This document shows, one piece after another, positions 5,735 through 55,592 of a DNA stretch of 64,000 bases. Both the position numbers and the translations under genes were made by a program. Under the pieces are notes generated by a model. The model was not told the origin of the DNA and did no database searches. It was given only the letters and a program-made list of their open reading frames with translations. The stretch spans positions 1 through 64,000 of the forward strand of contig JAGAMO010000006.1 in assembly GCA_017624675.1 (NCBI GenBank), in the 5' to 3' direction. Source of the stretch: Clostridia bacterium. Lineage in GTDB: Bacteria; Bacillota; Clostridia; Oscillospirales; Acutalibacteraceae. Numbering within the stretch: position 1 is the first letter of the stretch; every line of letters starts with the position of its first letter.

Positions 5735-6652
5735 ATGAATGAATTTTATCCAGAGGGTCTTAAAACCGAAAACAAAAGAAGTATTATCACAACAGCTGTT
5801 TTAGCCGAGGCAAAGGTACAGCAAACTGTTATGGAAGCGCCCGTAATTATGTGTGATGCGTCCCATAATTTAATCGTGAATTTGGGTTGTATGAGAGGAA
5901 TTATTCCAAGAAATGAGGGTGCATTAGGTATTGAGGACGGCACCACAAGAGATATTGCCTTGATTTCACGTGTCGGCAAACCTGTAAGCTTTATCGTTAC
6001 GGGTTTCAGCGAAGATAAGAACGGCAAACCCTACGCCCTACTATCACGCAAAGCCGCTCAAAAATTATGTCTTGACCACATCTTGAACAATAAAAAGGTC
6101 GGCGACATAATTGACGCTAAAATTACCCATTTTGAAAACTTTGGCGCTTTTTGCGATATAGGTTGCGGAAATATTGCACTTTTGCCTATAGATTCAATAT
6201 CAGTTTCTCGTATTTCCCACCCAAAAGACCGTTTTTATTTAGGAGAAAATATAAAAGCAGTTATCAAGAATATTGCTTCCGACGGCAAAATAACCCTTTC
6301 CCATAAAGAACTTTTAGGCACTTGGGAGGAAAATGCCTGTATGTTTTCAGCGGGTCAAACGGTTACGGGTGTTGTGAGAAGTGTTGAAGACTATGGCATT
6401 TTTGTTGAAATAACACCTAATCTTGCAGGTTTAGCAGAGCCTAGAGTTGGCACACAAATCGGTCAACAAGCAAGTGTTTATATAAAAAGCATTATCCCTG
6501 AAAAAATGAAAATCAAACTTATAATTATTGATAGTTTTGACACAGGTTACACGCCTCAGCTAAATTATTTCTATTCGGGCAATAACATTCTTCAATGGGA
6601 CTATTCACCAAAAGACTGTCAAAAACAAATCACAAGCAGATTTTGCTCATAA
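5735..6652 (+). CDS. S1 RNA-binding domain protein
   Basis: A 305-residue protein related to ribosomal protein S1. After an N-terminal S1-like region (about 35-110, DASHNLIVNLGCMRGIIPRNE), a clear S1 domain spans roughly 120-190 (VGDIIDAKITHFENFGAFCDIGCGNIALLPIDSIS). Another follows at about 205-270 (GQTVTGVVRSVEDYGIFVEITPNLAGLAE). It probably binds single-stranded RNA and affects translation or RNA handling. It is shorter than E. coli S1 and resembles the short S1-like proteins of Clostridia. It stands as a single-gene unit between two terminators. The last domain is less typical, and the C-terminal 25 residues are unrelated to S1. Confidence 0.8.
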   Translation: MNEFYPEGLKTENKRSIITTAVLAEAKVQQTVMEAPVIMCDASHNLIVNLGCMRGIIPRNEGALGIEDGTTRDIALISRVGKPVSFIVTGFSEDKNGKPYALLSRKAAQKLCLDHILNNKKVGDIIDAKITHFENFGAFCDIGCGNIALLPIDSISVSRISHPKDRFYLGENIKAVIKNIASDGKITLSHKELLGTWEENACMFSAGQTVTGVVRSVEDYGIFVEITPNLAGLAEPRVGTQIGQQASVYIKSIIPEKMKIKLIIIDSFDTGYTPQLNYFYSGNNILQWDYSPKDCQKQITSRFCS

Positions 6653-6659
6653 TAGTTAT

Positions 6660-6690
6660 AATTAAAGCTCCCGAAAGGGAGCTTTAATTA
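6660..6690. terminator. Bidirectional terminator between convergent genes
   Basis: TAATTAAAGCTCCC and GGGAGCTTTAATTA pair around a GAAA tetraloop. The stem overlaps the stop codon of the convergent yfhO-like gene at 6688-6690. Confidence 0.85.
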
Positions 6691-9258
6691 TTCGTTGTCA
6701 ATATCGGTATTGATTGTAAATCCGCCACTAAATGTTTGATTTGTATCGGGTGATTTTATTTCTTCAACATCATCTAAGATACTCTTTTTAACGGGAATTT
6801 CAAAATACTCTTCAATAGGCTCATTAGCCTCCTCTTTTTTCCATCGGGATATGAGTTCATTCCCCTCGGGATATTCCATAAGAGTATTATGCTTACGCTT
6901 GTAAAGAGAAAATATAATCACATACAACAAGAGTGCTACTGCAGAAGTGAAGGTAATCGCAATTCCTGTCATCAAATAAGGTGTCTGATAATCAAAACGA
7001 ATTACACTCTCGCCCTTTGGAACCTTAACAGCCATAAAACCGCTGTTCACTTCTTCTATCTCACAAGGTTTTCCGTTAACAGTAGCAGACCAACCCTTGT
7101 CATAAGGCACCGAGAAAAATACTAAATTTTCCTTATCGCGGCTTACCATTGCAGTAAAGCCTCGTTTATCAACCTTAAAACTTTTTGCCGAAGTCTCTTT
7201 CAACTCATCGCAATTTTCCTTTATACCTTCTGCAGAAAAATCAATTCTACTTATATCATCCTCAAGATTTTTAAACATATATCCGTATTTCTTAATCTGC
7301 TTGTCACTTAACATTATAGCCTCAAGCATTAAATCCGCTCTTTTTTCGTTGCTATATGTCTCGCAAAAATCCTTAGACATATAATAATCATATGAAAAAC
7401 CATACGGAATAAAGTTTTGGTTTTCGTAGATATAATATCCGCTCTCGGTTTTGAGATATTTATATCCCGCCATTTTAGTTTCATTAGTTTCGGTATCAAT
7501 AAAATCATCGCCGTCAACACGGTTTAAAAGATATTTGACCGACAAAAGAGGTCTTAACGATTCGTATTCAATTTCGGGTCGACTGCCAACACTTCTCTCC
7601 ACACCGATAAATGAATAAAACTCAAATATAGACGACGGAACTACCGAATGGAATGCATTAATACCCGCAAAGCCTAAATACATTGAGGTATTATCGACAC
7701 CGTCATAAACATCTATTCTGAACTGTGTCTCGTCTCCTAAATCAACCTCTCCCTCAATAAGTGAGTCAATTACAACATTTTTAATATCATAGGAATGTGA
7801 CCTACCCGTTGCGATAAATACATTACCGTATATAACCGAAACCATGCAAACACAGGCAAGGGAAACCTTATAGAAGTTGTTGAAGCTTTGAGTTCTGAGT
7901 TTTAGGACAAGACCTAATATAATAAGTGAAACCACCGCAATAATACAAGCTATGAAAAATCTGGGTCCATAGATGTTATCATCGCTTTGGGTGTAAAGGC
8001 CAAAGGTTAAGGTGCCATCGGAATTTTCTTGAGGGAAGAAGCCTATAACAAGGCTTGCCACCAAGGTAATAGATGCTACCCATTTATAACCAAAACTCCA
8101 ATCGGTTTGGCTGTCCTCAGTCAAGGAAACGGTCATAAGTGCCATCATTAATATCGGCATATAAAACCAACGGGCATAGTATGAGGTGTTAAAGGCATAA
8201 AATGCACTGTTTAAAATCGGCACCAAGGACATAAATATACAAATCCCAACTATGCGTCCAAGCCAATTTCTTTTGCGTTTTGAAAACCAAGTAAATACTC
8301 CAACCATACTGAAAACAGGAAGCCAACCGCCCAAAGAGGACCACTTAACATCTGCTTCGGGGAAGAATACGGGACGGGCAGGAATATCGGGAGGGAAAAA
8401 GAAGCACTGAAGCACATTAGCGTAAATCTGCTCCTTACCATACATAATGGCGTTCCAACCTGTGAGTATTTCAGAAACTCGGTAATTGCTTGTTATAGCC
8501 ATTATAGAGGGCAATAAAATCATTGCTGACAGGCAAAGACCCAAAATCGCCTCAAAGACAACGACCAAGAAATTCGAAATTTTAAATTTCACACTGCCGC
8601 TTAATGTTCTTACAAAGTAATATATGATGCAGAAAACTACCATTCCAAAGAAGAAAAAGTAATTTGAAACTGCACAAAGGCAAACCATAAGCACAAAGCA
8701 AAATCTCTTATTTTCGGTAATTAGAAGTTCAAACGCCAAAAGCAAAAGCGGAAAAAATACAATAGCCTCGTGGAAATGGTTAAAGAATATATTGTAAATA
8801 CTAAAGCCCGAAAAAGCATAAAGTATTCCGCCTAAACGGGCAGCGTCGGGCGTTCTTGTAAAACGCCTTATATACATACTCGCCGTAAGTGCCGCAAGAG
8901 CAAATTTTAAAATAAGCAAAGGCCCCATTAAATAAGGAATAAAGCTGTTAGGAAAAGGAATTGTTAGCCAGAAAAAAGGACTTCCTAAAAGATAAAAACT
9001 ATATGAACCAATGAAATTAACACCTAAATCGGTATTCCAATTCCAAAAAATATTGCCCTCTCTTACAGCTTTGTGACACATTTGATAAAAGGGTATTTGC
9101 TGAACATTAAAGTCGCCGTAAAAAATGAAATACCCCTCACTCATTATCATATATGGCACAAACAAAGCCATAGCCACAAAAAGGGCTATGAGAAAGGTTG
9201 AGCCATATTTTTCTTTTTGAGGTTTAAGTAAAGCAGCCTTAGCCTTAGAAAACATCAT
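6688..9258 (-). CDS. YfhO-family membrane protein
   Basis: A very large (856-residue) membrane protein with about 13 hydrophobic helices in the first 500 residues. An extracytoplasmic region of about 270 residues follows, then a final helix near residue 775 and an acidic cytoplasmic tail. This is the YfhO family, GT-C-like proteins implicated in adding sugars to teichoic or lipoteichoic acids. Supporting features are the aspartate in FYGDFNVQQIPFYQ after helix 1, WNTDLGVNF, and the soluble-domain end VPYDKGWSATVNGKP. In GT-C enzymes the first external loop aspartate is usually catalytic, so Asp49 or a neighbour is a candidate. It is transcribed alone, divergent from the yfbR-like gene. Confidence 0.85.
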   Translation of the reverse strand: MMFSKAKAALLKPQKEKYGSTFLIALFVAMALFVPYMIMSEGYFIFYGDFNVQQIPFYQMCHKAVREGNIFWNWNTDLGVNFIGSYSFYLLGSPFFWLTIPFPNSFIPYLMGPLLILKFALAALTASMYIRRFTRTPDAARLGGILYAFSGFSIYNIFFNHFHEAIVFFPLLLLAFELLITENKRFCFVLMVCLCAVSNYFFFFGMVVFCIIYYFVRTLSGSVKFKISNFLVVVFEAILGLCLSAMILLPSIMAITSNYRVSEILTGWNAIMYGKEQIYANVLQCFFFPPDIPARPVFFPEADVKWSSLGGWLPVFSMVGVFTWFSKRKRNWLGRIVGICIFMSLVPILNSAFYAFNTSYYARWFYMPILMMALMTVSLTEDSQTDWSFGYKWVASITLVASLVIGFFPQENSDGTLTFGLYTQSDDNIYGPRFFIACIIAVVSLIILGLVLKLRTQSFNNFYKVSLACVCMVSVIYGNVFIATGRSHSYDIKNVVIDSLIEGEVDLGDETQFRIDVYDGVDNTSMYLGFAGINAFHSVVPSSIFEFYSFIGVERSVGSRPEIEYESLRPLLSVKYLLNRVDGDDFIDTETNETKMAGYKYLKTESGYYIYENQNFIPYGFSYDYYMSKDFCETYSNEKRADLMLEAIMLSDKQIKKYGYMFKNLEDDISRIDFSAEGIKENCDELKETSAKSFKVDKRGFTAMVSRDKENLVFFSVPYDKGWSATVNGKPCEIEEVNSGFMAVKVPKGESVIRFDYQTPYLMTGIAITFTSAVALLLYVIIFSLYKRKHNTLMEYPEGNELISRWKKEEANEPIEEYFEIPVKKSILDDVEEIKSPDTNQTFSGGFTINTDIDNE

Positions 9259-28221: not shown

Positions 28222-28737
28222 ATGATTTACTCCCAAAACAGCGAGTTAGTTGAAGCTATAAAAGATTTTCATTTGCCTAAATACAATGAAATTCCTAATG
28301 TTGGTTTATATCTTGAACAAACCTCTAAATATATAACCGATGCTTTATCTCCCCTTTTCCCAAATGCAATAACAGGTTCTATGATTTCTAACTATGTAAA
28401 AAAAGGTCTTGTTAGCAACCCTGTAAAAAAACAGTATGACCGCGAACAAATTGCATACCTTATATTTATCGCGGTAGTTAAAAATGTTATTTCTATGGAC
28501 GATATAAAACTTTGCATTGATATACAAAAGAAAAGCTACAAAAGTGTTGTGGCATATACCTACTTTGCCGAAGAATTAGAAACACTTATTTCTTATGTAT
28601 TCGGTCAAACAACATTGTCTGAGGAAAGAGGTCTTGAACTCGACAGTGAGAAAAGAATGCTCCGCAATATTATTATTACCGTTGCGCACAAAATTTATCT
28701 CGAAAAATACTTTAATTTGATGGATGAAAAAAAATAA
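28222..28737 (+). CDS. DUF1836 domain protein
   Basis: A 171-residue soluble protein of the DUF1836 family, common in Clostridia. The central TGSMISNYVKKGLVSNPVKK and YDREQIAYLIFIAVVKNVISMDDI are its signature and look like a winged or MerR-like helix-turn-helix, so a DNA-binding role is likely but not established. SD GGAGG lies upstream. It is transcribed divergently from degV and sits immediately before the tRNA-Met/tRNA-Glu unit, which has its own promoter. Confidence 0.8.
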   Translation: MIYSQNSELVEAIKDFHLPKYNEIPNVGLYLEQTSKYITDALSPLFPNAITGSMISNYVKKGLVSNPVKKQYDREQIAYLIFIAVVKNVISMDDIKLCIDIQKKSYKSVVAYTYFAEELETLISYVFGQTTLSEERGLELDSEKRMLRNIIITVAHKIYLEKYFNLMDEKK

Positions 28738-28746
28738 AATTTAGTA

Positions 28747-28775
28747 TTGACAAAAGTCGACTTGTTCGCTATAAT
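28747..28775 (+). promoter_or_regulatory. Promoter of the tRNA-Met/tRNA-Glu unit
   Basis: TTGACA at 28747-28752 and TATAAT at 28770-28775, spacer 17: perfect consensus, 21 bases before the first tRNA. Confidence 0.9.
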
Positions 28776-28795
28776 ATACAAGTCGCTTTAAATTT

Positions 28796-28872
28796 GGCTG
28801 TATAGCTCAGTTGGCTAGAGCATGCGGTTCATACCCGCAGTGTCACCGGTTCGAATCCAGTTACAGCCACCA
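28796..28872 (+). tRNA. tRNA-Met (CAT)
   Basis: Seven-pair acceptor GGCTGTA/TACAGCC, D arm GCTC/GAGC, anticodon stem TGCGG/CCGCA with loop TTCATAC (anticodon CAT), T loop TTCGAAT and an encoded CCA at 28870-28872. One mismatch appears in the T stem. The first base pair is a normal G-C, so this looks like an elongator Met tRNA or a CAT tRNA later modified for Ile, rather than the initiator. Confidence 0.93.
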
Positions 28873-28971
28873 GCCGAGAGGCTCGGCACCCAATCTGTCT
28901 TAAGTCTTGTTTTGACTAAAATCATTGACTCGACCGTAAGTTAAATTTGGGTGGCAAACCTCAAGCGCTTT
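28873..28971 (+). other. Structured spacer between two tRNAs
   Basis: Directly after the CCA of tRNA-Met comes a small hairpin GCCGAG/CTCGGC (28873-28887). Then CACCCAA (28887-28893) can pair with TTGGGTG (28947-28953), enclosing AGTC/GACT. It lies within one transcript with the two tRNAs and may guide RNase processing. No ORF. Confidence 0.4.
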
Positions 28972-29047
28972 GGCCCGGTGGTCAAGAGGCCTAAGACACC
29001 GCCCTTTCACGGCGGTAACACGGGTTCGAATCCCGTCCGGGTCACCA
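28972..29047 (+). tRNA. tRNA-Glu (TTC)
   Basis: Acceptor GGCCCGG/CCGGGTC, anticodon stem CCGCC/GGCGG with loop CTTTCAC (anticodon TTC), T arm CGGGTTCGAATCCCG and an encoded CCA at 29045-29047. Transcribed from the same promoter as tRNA-Met. Confidence 0.95.
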
Positions 29048-29086
29048 AAATCCCGTTCTCGAAAGAGAGCGGGATTTTTACTTTTA
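29048..29086 (+). terminator. Terminator of the tRNA-Met/tRNA-Glu unit
   Basis: AAATCCCG...CTC/GAG...CGGGATTT stem with a GAAA loop, followed by TTTACTTTT. The same AAATCC...GGATTTTTACTTT frame recurs after the other two tRNA units of the window. Confidence 0.85.
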
Positions 29087-29108
29087 AATCAAACATAAGG
29101 AGATTTGC

Positions 29109-29780
29109 ATGACAACAAAATTATTCATACAAGCAATTTCAAAATTTTTGTTAGGCATTTTTTTGGTTGCTTTGTTAATTTTCTTGCCCGCAGGTACTTT
29201 GCGTTTTGCAAACGGTTGGCTATTTATCGCTATTTTATTTATTCCTATGCTTATTGCAGGGATTGTAATGATGTTTAAAAACCCCGAATTATTAAAAAAA
29301 CGACTTGACGCAAAAGAAAAAGAGCGCGAACAGGATATTGTTGTAAAGCTCAGCGGACTTATGTTTTTAATAGGTTTTATAGTTGCGGGTTTGACTCTCC
29401 GTTTTGGTTGGTATTCCCTGCCAAAAGGTATTGTTATTGCTTCCTCAATTTTATTCCTTAGTGCATATATTTTATATGCCGAGGTTTTGAGAGAAAATAC
29501 ATATTTAAGCCGCACCATTAAGGTGGAAGAAAATCAAAAAGTTATTGATACAGGTCTTTACTCCATTGTGAGACATCCTATGTATAGCATTACCTTGATT
29601 TTATTTTTATCAATGCCTTTGGTACTTGGCTCTATTTATTCTTTTTTAATTTTTCTTGCCTACCCTTTTATAATTGCCAAACGAATTAAAAACGAAGAAA
29701 AATTACTCGAAAATGAGCTTGATGGCTATAAAGAATACAAACAAAAAGTCAAATACCGATTAATTCCGTTTATTTGGTAA
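29109..29780 (+). CDS. Isoprenylcysteine/phospholipid methyltransferase-like membrane protein
   Basis: A 223-residue integral membrane protein with about five helices. The C-terminal signature GLYSIVRHPMYSITLIL followed by AKRIKNEEKLLENELDGYKEYKQKVKYRLIPFIW is that of the ICMT/PEMT-like family, membrane methyltransferases using S-adenosylmethionine. Bacterial members have largely unknown substrates. SD AAGGAG precedes the start. It is a single gene with a terminator about 60 bases downstream. The family call is firm; the substrate is not known. Confidence 0.8.
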   Translation: MTTKLFIQAISKFLLGIFLVALLIFLPAGTLRFANGWLFIAILFIPMLIAGIVMMFKNPELLKKRLDAKEKEREQDIVVKLSGLMFLIGFIVAGLTLRFGWYSLPKGIVIASSILFLSAYILYAEVLRENTYLSRTIKVEENQKVIDTGLYSIVRHPMYSITLILFLSMPLVLGSIYSFLIFLAYPFIIAKRIKNEEKLLENELDGYKEYKQKVKYRLIPFIW

Positions 29781-50209: not shown

Positions 50210-50929
50210 TTAATTAAACTTAATATCGCCTGTTTCGGTTTCTATTTCACATCTGCCGCCTCTTATACTTTTGGGAACATCAATATCACCCGTATCGGTT
50301 TTAGTTATGAACACTTTTGGGGTCAGAAAACTACCCGTCACATCGCCCGTATCGGTTTTAACAAAAATTTCTTTAGCATCGCATTTATCGAGCTTAACAT
50401 CTCCTGTATCGGTTTTGATTTTAATAATATCAGCCGATGCCGAGTTCTTAATGTCTCCTGTGCTAATAGAAATATCAATATTTTTAAATTTAAAATCTTT
50501 AGGTATGTTAATATCTCCCGTGCTTTCTCTAATTGAAAGATTTTTATATTCGTTTTCGGGCAGATATACAATAATATCAGACTTTCCCATAGTTATACCG
50601 ACATATTCATACCAATTTCTTTCATCAATTTGTTTAATTGTAAGGGTTTCATCTACAACTTCGGCAGAATAATATACATTTTCCTCTTCGTAGCAAACCA
50701 CTTCGCATTTACCGTTTTGAGACAAAGCAAAAACTATATCTTCTGTATCAGTTTCTATTAATATGTTACTGAATTTATCATCTATCTGCCTATTGGTTTT
50801 ATATTTTACCGTTGTTGCAAGTTTAGTAAAATCCCAATTATTTATTGTCATTGCAGAAGCAAAGATTGAAGCTCCAATAACAATAAAGAAGGTTGCAATA
50901 ATGAGCCATATTTTCGTTTTTTTAGACAT
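50210..50929 (-). CDS. DUF4097-type beta-strand repeat protein
   Basis: A 239-residue protein with one N-terminal membrane helix (8-30) and an extracytoplasmic beta-helix. Short repeats of the form x-T-D/S-T-G-D-I/V occur at least six times (ESTGDIN, SISTGDIK, TDTGDVKL, TDTGDVTG, TDTGDIDV, TETGDIKF), the hallmark of DUF4097 proteins. These are found with PadR and DUF1700 genes in many Firmicutes and are thought to act in envelope homeostasis. It starts one base before the DUF1700 stop and ends the PadR operon. Confidence 0.87.
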   Translation of the reverse strand: MSKKTKIWLIIATFFIVIGASIFASAMTINNWDFTKLATTVKYKTNRQIDDKFSNILIETDTEDIVFALSQNGKCEVVCYEEENVYYSAEVVDETLTIKQIDERNWYEYVGITMGKSDIIVYLPENEYKNLSIRESTGDINIPKDFKFKNIDISISTGDIKNSASADIIKIKTDTGDVKLDKCDAKEIFVKTDTGDVTGSFLTPKVFITKTDTGDIDVPKSIRGGRCEIETETGDIKFN

Positions 50930-51537
50930 TACTCTTCCTCCTTTTTAATAAAAGATTTTTTAATACTAAACACAATCTTTTTGGTAAATAATAAAATGCC
51001 TTTTGTGGCAACTTTACAACTATAGAAAAACAATATAGAAAGTCCTATACAAACAAGCCCTGCAGATATTAAAGCCACACCTGTAAGTCCATTTTTATAA
51101 ATACTGAGTATAATACCGCCTATAATTCCACCAAAAGCAGAGGCAATAATTGCCGAAAAGCAGGCCCAAAGTGAAACAATTACTGCCCACAAGGAAACAT
51201 AAAGAGAAAAGATTACGGCAAATATTGCAATTAAAATTGCTAACCACAAAGGCGCACCCAAAACCAATAGCACAATTTCCCACGCCTTAATGCGTCTTTT
51301 GGGTTTTATTTTTTCCTTTGCAATTTTAGTGAGTGGAATATCTGCTACAATCTGCTCAACTATTTCATCAACGGTTCCAATTTCTGCAATAGCTTCCGCC
51401 TCTGAAAGTCCATCTTCAATGCGGTCCTCTATCATTTCGTTATAAAAATTAAGACGCTCTTCAATTTCGTTTTGGGGAAGTCCTGATAATTTATTATGTA
51501 AAGACAAAAGAAACTGCAATTCAGTCATTTCCCTCAT
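50929..51537 (-). CDS. DUF1700 membrane protein
   Basis: A 202-residue protein. The cytoplasmic N-terminus (FLLSLHNKLSGLPQNEIEERLNFYNEMIEDRIEDGLSEAEAIAEIGTV) is the DUF1700 signature, followed from about residue 88 by four hydrophobic segments. It is probably an anti-sigma-like or sensing partner of the downstream DUF4097 protein. The start lies 17 bases inside the PadR gene, so translation is coupled. Confidence 0.87.
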   Translation of the reverse strand: MREMTELQFLLSLHNKLSGLPQNEIEERLNFYNEMIEDRIEDGLSEAEAIAEIGTVDEIVEQIVADIPLTKIAKEKIKPKRRIKAWEIVLLVLGAPLWLAILIAIFAVIFSLYVSLWAVIVSLWACFSAIIASAFGGIIGGIILSIYKNGLTGVALISAGLVCIGLSILFFYSCKVATKGILLFTKKIVFSIKKSFIKKEEE

Positions 51538-51841
51538 CCTCCTTGGTTACAAATTTATATATTGAAAGAATTTCTCGCCATTCGTTTTTGAAATCCTCTA
51601 TTCGCTTTAATCCGTGTTCGGTTATATGGTAGTATTTACGAAGTCGGCCACCGTGCTCCGCAGTTCTGACAGTCAGCATATTTGCACTTTCCAAGCGTTT
51701 TAAAATTGTATATAAGGTTGATTCGGACAACTCAATATATGGCTTCATATCTTTTATAATCTTATAGCCATAGGAATCTTCGTTTTTGATAGATGCCAAA
51801 ACGCATACATCCAAAAGACCTCTTTTTAATTGAATATCCAT
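51521..51841 (-). CDS. PadR family transcriptional regulator
   Basis: A 106-residue winged-helix repressor. LKRGLLDVCVLASIKNEDSYGYKIIKDM, LSESTLYTILKRLESANMLTVRTAEHGGRLRKYYHITEHGLKRI is the complete PadR domain. The ATG at 51841 has a strong AAAGGAGGT; the frame is open 32 codons further upstream, but that stretch covers the promoter. It regulates its own operon with DUF1700 and DUF4097 by inference, since an inverted repeat overlaps the promoter -10. Confidence 0.92.
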   Translation of the reverse strand: MDIQLKRGLLDVCVLASIKNEDSYGYKIIKDMKPYIELSESTLYTILKRLESANMLTVRTAEHGGRLRKYYHITEHGLKRIEDFKNEWREILSIYKFVTKEDEGND

Positions 51842-51860
51842 ACAATACCTCCTTTTACAT

Positions 51861-51894
51861 AATACATCGTAACACGAAGTATTGTTTTTGTCAA
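51861..51894 (-). promoter_or_regulatory. padR operon promoter and operator
   Basis: Minus strand TTGACA (51889-51894) and TACGAT (51866-51871), spacer 17. An inverted repeat, ATACTTCG and CGATGTAT with five bases between (51863-51883), covers the -10, fitting PadR autoregulation. Confidence 0.65.
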
Positions 51895-51932
51895 GTCCTA
51901 TAAATTCGTCTGCGAAGCAGACACCGAAGTTC

Positions 51933-52025
51933 TTCACTATTCACTATTACTTATTATTTCCAAAAATCCTCTTTATAAAAGCGTAGAGAACAGTGAAAAG
52001 TGAAGAGTGAACAGTGAAAAAGTAA
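51933..52025. repeat. Heptad repeat tracts in two orientations
   Basis: On the minus strand, after the tRNA-Gln terminator, seven-base units follow in register: TTACTTT, TTCACTG, TTCACTC, TTCACTT, TTCACTG, TTCTCT (51985-52025). An oppositely oriented tract TTCACTATTCACTATTACTT lies at 51933-51952. A matching tract follows tRNA-Ser at 61413-61454. Confidence 0.7.
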
Positions 52026-52301: not shown

Positions 52302-52461
52302 GAAAAAAATCTATTATTTTTTAAAGTGTTTTTCAAGTGTGATTTATCCTTAAATTTGGTAAATAAAAATTTACAAAAAAGTGAATTTTTTCTTTAGAAA
52401 CAGTAAAAACTATTAAAAATATACAACCTTTGCAACCAGAGGTTGCGAAAAATTCAATGTT

Positions 52462-52504
52462 TTGTTGCTTGTATTATTGCTAAATATAATGTATTATTAT
52501 ATTT
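52462..52504 (+). promoter_or_regulatory. Promoter of the XRE-GlmM operon with inverted repeat over the -10
   Basis: TTGTTG (52462-52467) and TATAAT (52485-52490), spacer 17. The -10 lies in the inverted repeat AAATATAAT-gtatt-ATTATATTT (52482-52504, nine-base perfect arms), a candidate operator for the XRE domain of the first gene product. A small hairpin GCAACC/GGTTGC (52432-52446) lies upstream. The rest of 52302-52431 is AT-rich with no gene. Confidence 0.65.
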
Positions 52505-52550
52505 GTGATTGAATATATTACAAACGAATCCACTTCAAGGAGGACACAAT

Positions 52551-54173
52551 ATGACAATCGGCGAAAAAATCACTCAACTTAGAACTGCATTGGATATCTC
52601 TCAGGAAACCCTAGCAGATAAGCTTTCGGTTTCCCGTCAATCTGTTTCCAAATGGGAAATGGACCAAGCTCAACCTCAGATTGATAAAATTCTCCAGTTA
52701 TGCGAGATTTTTAACATCACTGCAGATGAGCTTATATCTGATAAAATTTCAATCAACCCCACCCCCGCAGGTGCGCCTGTTAAAAATAAATATTTTGGTA
52801 CTGACGGTTTCAGAGGCGAAGCTAACCTCAACCTTACTTCTATGCACGCATATAAAGTAGGCAGATTTTTAGGTTGGTATTATTCCTCAAAACTTTCAGG
52901 CTGTGCTTCATCGGGCTACCGTCCCAAAATTGTTATCGGTAAAGACACCCGCCGCTCAAGTTATATGCTTGAATATTCCATCGTTGCAGGTATTACCGCT
53001 TCGGGTGCTGACGCTTATATGCTTCACGTAACCACTACCCCCAGCGTTTCTTATGTTACCCGTCAGGATGAATTTGACTGCGGTATTATGATTACTGCAT
53101 CTCACAATCCTTTTTATGATAACGGAATTAAGGTTATAAACAAATACGGTGAAAAGCTCGACGATGAGACCACTGCTTTAATCGAAGCATATATTGACGG
53201 TAACCTTTCCGCTTTAGGTGTTAAGGGCGAAGACCTCCCCTTAGCTCACAGAGAGCGCATCGGCGAAATTGTTGATTACTCAGCAGGCAGAAACAGATAT
53301 GTAGGTTACCTCATTTCTGTTGCATCTAACTCATACAAAAAACTCCGTATCGGTCTTGACTGTGCTAACGGTGCTTCTTGGATGATTGCAAAATCTGTTT
53401 TTGACGCTCTCGGCGCTCAGACAGTTATTATTGGAAACGAGCCTAACGGACTTAATGTTAACAACGGCTGCGGCTCAACACATATGGAAAATCTCTGCAA
53501 TTTAGTTAAAGAGCAACACCTTGATGTCGGCTTTGCTTTTGACGGTGATGCTGACCGCTGTATTGCTGTTGACGAAAACGGAAATATTATTGACGGCGAC
53601 GCTATGATGTATATCTTAGCAAACCGCTTAAAATCTCGCGGAATGTTAAACGGCAACACAGTTGTTGCAACAGTTATGTCTAACAGCGGCTTCTTTGCTT
53701 CACTTAAGAAGCTAGGCATTGAGTGTGACCAAACCAAGGTCGGCGACCGCTTTGTATATGAATCAATGCAAAACAATAACTTTAGTCTCGGCGGTGAGCA
53801 GTCGGGTCATATTATCCTTAAAAAATACGCCACCACAGGCGACGGTATCTTAACCGCTATTATGTTGGCTGAGGAAATGTGCGACCGCAAGATGTCTTTA
53901 GCTAAGCTTTCCGAAAACCTTATGCTTTATCCTCAACATCTCATTAACCTTAGAGTTAAGAGCAAGGCGGATGTTATGAACGATGCCGAAGTTTTAGCTG
54001 CTAAAGAAGAGGTTAACAAGCTAATCGACGGAAATGGCAGAGCGCTTCTTAGAGAAAGCGGAACAGAGCCGGTTATCCGTATTATGATTGAAGCTGAAAC
54101 TAACGAGCTTTGCGCCCAATACGCTGAAATGATTGCAAAAGTTATTAAGGAAAGAGGTCATTTGAGTGAATAA
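52551..54173 (+). CDS. glmM: Phosphoglucosamine mutase GlmM fused to an N-terminal XRE DNA-binding domain
   Basis: A 540-residue protein. Residues 1-62 are an XRE helix-turn-helix (TIGEKITQLRTALDISQETL, LSVSRQSVSKWE). A 16-residue linker leads to a full phosphoglucosamine mutase from about 78 to 540. The active-site serine is Ser184 in TASHNP, the metal loop DGDADR is at 331-336, the sugar loop GGEQSGH at 414-420 and the phosphate loop RESGTEPVIR at 501-510, all intact. GlmM interconverts glucosamine 6-phosphate and glucosamine 1-phosphate. The ATG at 52551 is preceded by AAGGAGG; an upstream TTG at 52509 is rejected. Followed by an acyltransferase-like gene and nagB. Fusion to a DNA-binding domain is unusual. 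Confidence 0.93.
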   Translation: MTIGEKITQLRTALDISQETLADKLSVSRQSVSKWEMDQAQPQIDKILQLCEIFNITADELISDKISINPTPAGAPVKNKYFGTDGFRGEANLNLTSMHAYKVGRFLGWYYSSKLSGCASSGYRPKIVIGKDTRRSSYMLEYSIVAGITASGADAYMLHVTTTPSVSYVTRQDEFDCGIMITASHNPFYDNGIKVINKYGEKLDDETTALIEAYIDGNLSALGVKGEDLPLAHRERIGEIVDYSAGRNRYVGYLISVASNSYKKLRIGLDCANGASWMIAKSVFDALGAQTVIIGNEPNGLNVNNGCGSTHMENLCNLVKEQHLDVGFAFDGDADRCIAVDENGNIIDGDAMMYILANRLKSRGMLNGNTVVATVMSNSGFFASLKKLGIECDQTKVGDRFVYESMQNNNFSLGGEQSGHIILKKYATTGDGILTAIMLAEEMCDRKMSLAKLSENLMLYPQHLINLRVKSKADVMNDAEVLAAKEEVNKLIDGNGRALLRESGTEPVIRIMIEAETNELCAQYAEMIAKVIKERGHLSE

Positions 54174-54837
54174 GTTAGTTAAAACCTGTGAACTATATGA
54201 CTGTCAAGTTCCTTATTTAAAAGATTTTTTCAATTCTTTTGAATATCCTTGGGAGATGCTTCCCAAAATCAAAGACCTTATCGCTTCCCTATTGGAAAGC
54301 GGAATTGAAGGCTTCACCGAGCTTAAAGAGGGTGTGCTTGTAGGCAGAAACGTTACCATTGCTCCTACAGCTACTATTGAAGCCCCAGCTATAATCGGAC
54401 ACGATACAGTAATTCGTCCCGGTGCTTATATTAGAGGCAACCTTATCACAGGAAGCGGTTGTGTTATCGGCAATTCATCTGAATACAAAAATGCTATTTT
54501 GCTTGATAACGTTCAAACACCTCATTACAATTATATCGGCGATTCTATTTTAGGTAACCGCGCCCACACAGGTGCAGGTACCGTTTGCTCCAACCTTAAA
54601 TCTGACGGTAAAAATGTTGTTATCCGCGGCGACAAGGATTATGAAACAGGTCTTCGTAAAATTGGCGGAATTTTAGCCGACGGTGCGGATGTTGGTTGCG
54701 GATGCGTTATTAATCCAGGTACTGTAATAGGCAAAAAAACTTCTGTTTATCCATTAACCATGCTCAGAGGAGTTTACCCCGCTAACTGCATTGTTAAATC
54801 CACAAAAGAGTATGTTTTAAGAAAGGAAAATTTTTAA
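54166..54837 (+). CDS. Left-handed beta-helix acyltransferase-like protein (GlmU C-terminal type)
   Basis: A 223-residue protein with an N-terminal helical segment (1-65) and hexapeptide repeats from about 68 (VLVGRNVTIAPTATIEAPAIIG, VIRPGAYIRGNLITGSGCVIG). NRAHTGAGTVCSNLKSDGKNVVIR matches the acetyltransferase region of GlmU and archaeal ST0452-like proteins. No uridylyltransferase domain is present. It probably acetylates glucosamine 1-phosphate made by the upstream GlmM, although the catalytic histidine is uncertain. It has a GTG start overlapping glmM by 8 bases. Confidence 0.82.
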   Translation: MNKLVKTCELYDCQVPYLKDFFNSFEYPWEMLPKIKDLIASLLESGIEGFTELKEGVLVGRNVTIAPTATIEAPAIIGHDTVIRPGAYIRGNLITGSGCVIGNSSEYKNAILLDNVQTPHYNYIGDSILGNRAHTGAGTVCSNLKSDGKNVVIRGDKDYETGLRKIGGILADGADVGCGCVINPGTVIGKKTSVYPLTMLRGVYPANCIVKSTKEYVLRKENF

Positions 54838-55547
54838 TGAAATTCATCACTGTTAAAACCTATGAAGAGTTAAGTGAGAAAGCTGCTGACATTATCGCTT
54901 CTCAAATCATTGTTAAGCCCAACTGTGTGTTAGGTTTGGCTACAGGCTCCTCACCTGTTGGCACTTATAAAAGACTTATCAAGGACAACGAGAACGGAAA
55001 AATTGATTTTTCAACCGTTACAAGTGTTAACCTTGACGAGTATGTTGGTCTTGATGTTACAAACGACCAAAGCTATCGTTACTTTATGAATGACAATTTC
55101 TTTAATCATGTTAACATTGATAAATCCAAGACCTTTGTTCCCAACGGTTGTGCCGCTGATTTAAAAGCAGAGGGCGAAGCTTATGACAAGATGATTAAAG
55201 ATTTAGGCGGTATTGATTTACAGCTTTTAGGTATTGGACTTGACGGTCATATTGGTTTCAATGAACCTGATTCTTGCTTTGTTGGTCCCACCCACGAAGT
55301 AACTCTTGACGAGTCTACCATCAAGGCAAACGCTCGTTTCTTTGCTAATGAGGACGAAGTTCCAAAGACCGCTATCACAATGGGTATGATGTCTATTATG
55401 CAAGCAAGAAAGATTCTTTTGGTTGCTAACGGTGCTGCTAAAAAGGAAATTATTGAAAAATCCTTCTTTGGCCCCATCACCCCCGAAGTTCCCGCTTCGA
55501 TTCTTCAGTTACACCCCGATGTAACCGTAATTTTCAGTGAAAACTAA
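54837..55547 (+). CDS. nagB: Glucosamine-6-phosphate deaminase NagB
   Basis: A 236-residue enzyme converting glucosamine 6-phosphate to fructose 6-phosphate and ammonia. VLGLATGSSPVGTYKRLI binds the phosphate. SVNLDEYVGL carries the catalytic Asp, GIGLDGHIGFNEP the catalytic His and Glu pair, and ITMGMMSIMQARKI the C-terminal signature. It overlaps the acyltransferase gene by one base and ends at a terminator. Together with the upstream GlmM it sets the balance between amino-sugar synthesis and breakdown. Confidence 0.95.
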   Translation: MKFITVKTYEELSEKAADIIASQIIVKPNCVLGLATGSSPVGTYKRLIKDNENGKIDFSTVTSVNLDEYVGLDVTNDQSYRYFMNDNFFNHVNIDKSKTFVPNGCAADLKAEGEAYDKMIKDLGGIDLQLLGIGLDGHIGFNEPDSCFVGPTHEVTLDESTIKANARFFANEDEVPKTAITMGMMSIMQARKILLVANGAAKKEIIEKSFFGPITPEVPASILQLHPDVTVIFSEN

Positions 55548-55556
55548 AAACTTCAA

Positions 55557-55592
55557 AAAAAGCTGTTTGATTTAAGGTCAAACAGCTTTATT
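55557..55592 (+). terminator. Terminator of the amino-sugar operon
   Basis: AAAGCTGTTTGA and TCAAACAGCTTT around TTTAAGG, followed by TATTTTTATT. Confidence 0.85.

Follow-up and report, generated by a model that had tools for sequence, protein, structure and literature searches.

A phosphoglucosamine mutase with an XRE DNA-binding head as a candidate autoregulator of its amino-sugar operon

Can an enzyme of cell-wall precursor synthesis also be the transcription factor of its own operon? The question is raised by a gene in the 64,000-nucleotide stretch of DNA analysed here (the window), whose product carries an XRE-type helix-turn-helix (HTH) domain in front of a phosphoglucosamine mutase (GlmM).

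The fusion gene

52551..54173, + strand: XRE-HTH-GlmM fusion gene (540 aa: HTH 1-65, linker ~66-79, GlmM 80-540)

On reading the open reading frames (ORFs), the gene was found to be a single ORF without internal stop. An AAGGAGG ribosome site precedes the ATG at 52551, and an alternative TTG start at 52509 would lengthen the protein by 14 residues. Pfam placed HTH_3 at residues 9-61 (48.3 bits, cut-off 23), covering positions 3-55 of the 55 in the model, i.e. a complete XRE domain, and four PGM_PMM domains (I-IV) at residues 80-530, each above its cut-off. Against the NCBIfam model TIGR01455 (glmM) the protein scored 500.9 bits, above the cut-off of the curated GlmM equivalog (447.55). The 540-residue product is a complete XRE head joined to an intact GlmM; an earlier, sequence-only reading of this DNA had described this architecture and was borne out by the ORF, the Pfam and TIGR01455 matches, and the conserved residues. 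A search for the XRE plus PGM_PMM architecture, as proposed in that reading, was productive: the collected and classified loci comprised 91 distinct fusion genes, each distinct protein being counted once, alongside 41 distinct headless genes, of which L065 is a contig-edge fragment.

In the aligned fusion homologues S184, D331/D333/D335, E416, S418, and S503 were kept without exception (90/90), as were R501 in 89/90, G504 in 88/90, and T505 in 89/90; we take these residues to belong to the phosphoserine, metal, substrate, and phosphate loops. Mutase activity on glucosamine-6-phosphate (GlcN-6-P) is predicted for the GlmM half from its sequence. The recognition-helix residues R29, Q30, S33, W35, and E36 were likewise kept in 90/90 fusions. 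The linker is variable, with 10-23 residues and no conservation among the aligned fusion homologues.

The core (residues 79-534) aligned nearly full length with ordinary GlmM (TIGR01455; B. subtilis 7OJR, E = 2.5e-122; S. aureus 6GYZ). The best solved match to the head, residues 1-62, was the XRE regulator of ICEBs1 (PDB 7t8i, E = 2.1e-5), which differs from the fusion in being free-standing, encoded on a mobile element, and without an enzyme. Of the 54 PDB sequences matched, not one spans both head and mutase. The fusion is the sole GlmM-class gene found in its source assembly (1.58 Mb, 41 contigs, 96.7% complete). A second GlmM was sought in this genome and none was found: the other phosphosugar mutase matches were only 26-29% identical, and the ORF at L216 reads as phosphomannomutase-like. 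The fusion gene further differs from ordinary glmM in not lying beside cdaA in the source genome, where cdaA is followed by a CdaR/YbbR-like ORF (by reading) and no glmM (L199:1446-3606); the B. subtilis order is cdaA-cdaR-glmM-glmS (excerpt of PMC6171935).

Upstream in the window, at 50210-51937 on the minus strand, genes for a PadR regulator, a HAAS-domain protein, and a DUF4097 protein lie in a row, presumably as a small envelope or stress cassette.

The operon and the supply of GlcN-6-P

54166..54837, + strand: hexapeptide (left-handed beta-helix) acetyltransferase, resembling the C-terminal half of GlmU
54837..55547, + strand: nagB, glucosamine-6-phosphate deaminase/isomerase, above the TIGR00502 cut-off
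55559..55589, + strand: terminator-like hairpin after nagB

The operon content proposed earlier, an acetyltransferase and nagB, was right. The nearest models to the acetyltransferase are GlmU-type, all scoring below their cut-offs, and the protein is the best TIGR01173 match in the source genome; it is probably a GlcN-1-P acetyltransferase. The hairpin probably closes a three-gene operon, terminator-like sites in the region numbering 6 where 3.3 were expected. Within 3.2 kb downstream of the 91 fusion loci, 52 of which hold less than 3 kb of downstream sequence, we found the acetyltransferase in 72, nagB in 37, and glmS in 5, while 8 had none of the three; for the 39 loci with at least 3 kb the corresponding numbers were 32, 21, 1, and 3. 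At L104:7303-7987 nagB occupies two frames that overlap, perhaps through a frameshift in the assembly.

Searches for glmS, cdaA, glmU, and nagA covered 40 genomes each. Eight of the 11 fusion genomes scanned, the source genome included, had no glmS above cut-off; the gene was found in G001, G004, and G023, and adjoins the fusion in the latter two. The nagA gene exceeded its cut-off in 8/11 fusion genomes, leaving salvage open there, and was not found in the source genome, G005, or G014. No GlmU above cut-off was found in the source genome, this cut-off being one that just 3/40 genomes pass. The UDP-GlcNAc pyrophosphorylase of the source genome was sought and not identified; two candidates, L214 and L215, look by reading like IspD and RmlA.

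Because neither glmS nor nagA was found in the source genome, nagB is here likelier to supply GlcN-6-P than to serve catabolism. An aminating NagB is probably the simplest source in this genome, and glucosamine uptake may be an alternative one. NagB may not be biosynthetic, since under physiological conditions the NagB of Akkermansia was judged incapable of amination (excerpt of PMC5902328). The same excerpt describes Akkermansia as lacking GlmS and requiring GlcNAc or GalNAc, a precedent for cells that scavenge GlcNAc or GlcN with a catabolic NagB, the operon standing at a salvage branch point. That most of the fusion genomes scanned carry nagA agrees with scavenging; the three genomes in which it was not found would have no NagA route from GlcNAc-6-P to GlcN-6-P, and nagB shares its operon with biosynthetic genes. 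We consider scavenging unlikely, if worth serious attention, and prefer an aminating NagB.

In some relatives the supply of GlcN-6-P carries another control. The glmS ribozyme (RF00234), an RNA acting on the glmS mRNA, exerts feedback on this supply (excerpt of PMC6171935), which is the role proposed below for HTH-GlmM. A search of 60 genomes with stricter filters detected the ribozyme in 0/15 fusion genomes (source genome included) versus 16/45 others. Within the genus it was present in 9/9 genomes with ordinary glmM (40-43% identical), and in none of the seven with HTH-less close relatives (68-73%), the two with 54-55% relatives, or the five without a glmM match; outside the genus it was found in 7/22 non-fusion genomes. 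At L123, an HTH-less gene 62% identical and outside the fusion clade, the order is glmM, ribozyme (6564-6739), glmS. No ribozyme was detected at the fusion-glmS loci L055, L062, L114, L203, and L204, or at the non-fusion glmS loci L128, L129, and L188. Since HTH-less relatives and several non-fusion genomes and loci also lack RF00234, its absence does not set the fusions apart.

Operator, promoter, and the history of the head

52432..52446, no strand: putative operator O1, GCAACCAGAGGTTGC
52454..52468, no strand: putative, imperfect operator O2, TCAATGTTTTGTTGC; centred 22 bp from O1 and adjoining the -35
52469..52474, + strand: -35 TTGTAT, its TTG beside O2 conserved in relatives
52482..52504, no strand: inverted repeat named in the sequence-only reading; real, unconserved, probably due to chance
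52492..52497, + strand: -10 TATTAT, position conserved in relatives

The nine-base-arm repeat at 52482-52504, earlier proposed as the operator, is present in the DNA. However, 47 of 1000 dinucleotide shuffles of 52350-52550 gave such a repeat, and none of seven close relatives (L010, L011, L012, L013, L068, L070, and L099) had a perfect repeat with arms of at least 7 at this place; the check on conservation upstream of homologues, proposed in the sequence-only reading, thus came out negative. The repeat is for both reasons probably not the operator. The -10 had been placed at TATAAT, 52485-52490; the conserved position is that of TATTAT, and use of TATAAT in the source genome is possible.

A different, palindromic site, O1, unmentioned in the sequence-only reading and recognised by comparing the 110 nt in front of each fusion, lies 36-50 bp upstream of the repeat. 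From 69 sequences aligned on it the consensus was GCAACYNNNRGTTGC, often with TTT and AAA flanks. A relaxed form of this motif occurred within 250 nt upstream of 73/90 fusions versus 0/38 HTH-less genes, and in a mean of 0.5 (maximum 2) of the 90 in 20 shuffled sets; L089 (at a contig edge, without upstream sequence) was left out of the fusions, and L028, L065, and L131 (less than 100 nt upstream) out of the HTH-less genes. The half-site GTTGSTTG was found in 46/90 fusions, 0/38 HTH-less genes, and 0.85/90 shuffled sequences. With a leave-one-out weight matrix 77/90 fusions outscored 38/39 HTH-less genes. The exception, L064, keeps GCAGCCAGCGGTTGC, one mismatch from the operator motif; judged from its sequence, its loss of the head looks like an in-frame deletion, either a recent loss or an assembly fault. 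Sequence-specific DNA binding of the XRE head is predicted from this association with the operator. A variant motif with a 4-base gap was rejected (1/90 fusions; nine places in the source genome, none at the fusion); the gap is 5.

Weight-matrix scores were passed by 72/75 fusions outside a Bacilli clade, as defined on a quick tree, and by 5/15 inside it; L029, L052, and L126, all outside, also scored low. Ten of the 15 Bacilli-clade fusion genes lack the standard operator. Five such genes (L101, L108, L115, L118, and L121) share a perfect upstream palindrome, GTAAA-N6-TTTAC, and L103 has GTAAC-N5-GTTAC where L104-L107 have the standard operator. Head residue 32, considered as a possible determinant of operator type and tallied by genes with/without operator, was V in 68/6, L in 0/7, I in 5/3, and M in 0/1, a distribution confounded by ancestry.

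Ten base pairs, one helical turn, separate the half-sites of O1, a spacing that suits paired XRE heads. A second, degenerate copy (GTTG, 22 bp beyond O1) was found in 37/74 genes with O1, and the left half of O2 reads CAA in 22/56 genes with GTTG at 20-24 bp. In 55 scorable promoters the median centres from the assumed start were -65 for O1 and -43 for O2, the mean promoter match was 4.2 of 6 for the -35 and 5.2 of 6 for the -10, and an extended -10 (TGn) was present in 37/55. A -35/-10 spacer of 17 nt was best in 40/56 genes with 14-20 nt allowed and in 51/55 promoters with 16-18 allowed; the latter figure and the tight centres of O1 and O2 arise partly by construction, because the spacer was held to 16-18 and the O2 step to 20-24. 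The operator lies upstream of the -35 in most promoters scored. In L104-L107 and L109 it is preceded by a weakly predicted -10 (the promoters scoring 8-11 of 12; L109 also has a weaker alternative promoter downstream of the operator), and in L029 it overlaps a consensus -35, TTGACA. The operators downstream of a -10 favour repression, while the -65/-43 pair alone also fits activation.

Were HTH-GlmM an activator, the strong O1 would load a dimer at O2 that touches sigma at the -35. Lambda CI activates at its own promoter in this manner. The median positions of both sites, the partial -35 with a good -10, and the greater strength of the distal site would all be explained; the operators downstream of the -10 or overlapping TTGACA would not, and the extended -10 may make an activator unnecessary. 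Activation appears rather improbable to us, and repression is preferred. The protein might also bind its operator as a plain regulator of its own level, sensing no metabolite. The short, unconserved linker offers no conserved path for a signal, and homeostasis would follow from the DNA site by itself. A metabolite input is suggested, indirectly in both cases, by the joining of the head to an enzyme that binds GlcN-6-P and by the absence of the ribozyme in fusion genomes. Control free of any ligand is in our estimation doubtful, and repression with a metabolite input remains the preferred reading.

Whether the operator serves this one gene or a regulon was addressed in a chosen set of 45 genomes (25 fusion, 20 non-fusion). 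GCAAC-N5-GTTGC occurs three times in the source genome, and the copy at 52432 is the sole one that fits the Y/R consensus. The strict site stood directly upstream of the fusion in 22/25 chosen fusion genomes (misses: G116, G192, and G200) and was the single copy in the genome for 16 of those 22. Elsewhere there were 7 strict sites in the 25 fusion genomes versus 12 in the 20 non-fusion genomes, and none of those 12 was near glmM. Since the strict site is tied to the fusion gene, the data point to autoregulation rather than a regulon; one with many targets was unsupported in the tested genomes by the numbers of extra sites. For the same reason it is very unlikely that the operator serves a separate XRE protein whose recognition helix resembles that of the fused head, with the head serving another purpose. 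The source genome does hold three further XRE-type stretches 33-44% identical to the head, and at L064 an operator-like site stands before a headless gene; across genomes, however, presence of the site goes with presence of the fused head, and the site is near-unique at that gene. An assembly or frameshift artefact joining two genes, anticipated in the sequence-only reading together with homologues that always lack the HTH, has a negligible probability even though all 55 named fusion records among the best 80 loci are titled as MAGs or uncultured isolates, given 91 distinct fusion genes, from several sequencing projects by their titles, with HTH and operator conserved; these homologues likewise exclude the other condition, that every homologue lacks the head.

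Fused GlmM is widespread in uncultured, mostly gut, bacteria. Full-length fusions were found in 15/60 relatives, the source genome included, and in 14/37 genomes of its genus. An order-wide survey in which four candidates were scored per genome found them in at least 28/295 genomes (source genome included) from seven families. Among the best 80 named loci, 55 were fusions, including ones titled Bacilli, Bacillales, Erysipelotrichaceae, or Acholeplasmatales at 61-64% identity. Related genomes are non-independent data points in all such counts. A quick tree built from 130 GlmM domains (51/127 inner forks open; L065 and L089 left out) required four changes of the head, consistent with a single gain and three losses, the losses being in the single row L064, the seven rows L024-L028, L030, and L119, and the single row L022. 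Two of the three head-losing lineages lack the operator.

Six of the HTH-less genes in the fusion clade (L024-L027, L030, and L119) share a long predicted hairpin in the last 60 nt before glmM: CGCATA-loop-TATGCG or a near variant plus flanking pairs, with the ribosome site in the 3' arm. It is a possible RNA-level replacement control. On contig C61 of G025 (6214-7821 and 28245-29621; L013, L208, and L209) a fusion and an HTH-less relative, the latter 74% identical to the query, lie about 20 kb apart.

Proposed mechanism and known systems

We propose, at a probability of about 0.6, that HTH-GlmM is both an enzyme and the transcription factor of its own operon, most likely a repressor, working in the manner of NadR and replacing the ribozyme. 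In B. subtilis the GlmM dimer forms between domains 1 (excerpt of PMC8573169). Two heads per dimer are expected because the dimerising domain 1 comes right after the head. Dimerisation of the GlmM domains would bring the XRE heads at the two N-termini together on the palindromic O1, and another dimer would sit on the weaker O2, 22 bp off on the same face of the helix, covering the -35 and blocking RNA polymerase. HTH-GlmM, the GlcN-1-P acetyltransferase, and NagB would together convert fructose-6-phosphate and ammonia to GlcNAc-1-P, and the product pool, most likely GlcN-6-P, would be read by the GlmM active site and strengthen DNA binding. The enzyme would thus provide the feedback for which some relatives use the glmS ribozyme. 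The repression of its own operon suggested in the sequence-only reading thus keeps its core, self-control through the HTH, with comparative support, while the operator proposed there gives way to O1 and O2. For the sensing of amino-sugar phosphates, also suggested there, we infer that the likeliest arrangement is repression in which GlcN-6-P or a GlmM intermediate acts as the corepressor. A fuller history, in which a GlcN-6-P-sensing HTH-GlmM repressor took over the feedback of the glmS ribozyme and one branch then swapped GlmS for a biosynthetic NagB, is offered tentatively, at somewhat less than even odds.

By analogy, NadR is the closest working counterpart. The NadR of Enterobacterales carries an N-terminal HTH repressor domain on pathway enzymes, and its orthologues elsewhere mostly lack the HTH and are enzymes only (excerpt of PMC12421817); headed and headless forms are likewise found for GlmM. 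Two marks of NadR-like autoregulators were found here, a pathway enzyme that carries an HTH and keeps its catalytic residues, and a conserved operator at a pathway operon (73/90 versus 0/38 genes; 22/25 genomes). HTH-GlmM differs in its enzyme family, NadR belonging to the NAD pathway, and in having its site at one gene where NadR represses several. The NadR ligands are ATP and NAD (same excerpt), whereas that of HTH-GlmM is proposed by inference. The protein is not a member of the NadR family, Pfam finding PGM_PMM domains rather than an NMN adenylyltransferase/kinase; it would work like NadR without belonging to it.

PutA and BirA, too, combine catalysis with a DNA-binding domain of their own and regulate the pathway in which they act; they differ from HTH-GlmM in the types of domain and enzyme. 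No XRE-GlmM fusion was described in the open-access literature among the matches listed, as judged from titles and abstract openings. If the proposed mechanism is true, a cell-wall enzyme would join the few enzymes that are the transcription factor of their own operon, with a concrete operator, and the family would provide a natural case of a metabolite-sensing ribozyme possibly replaced by a protein. The operon may in addition exemplify how UDP-GlcNAc precursors can be made without GlmS.
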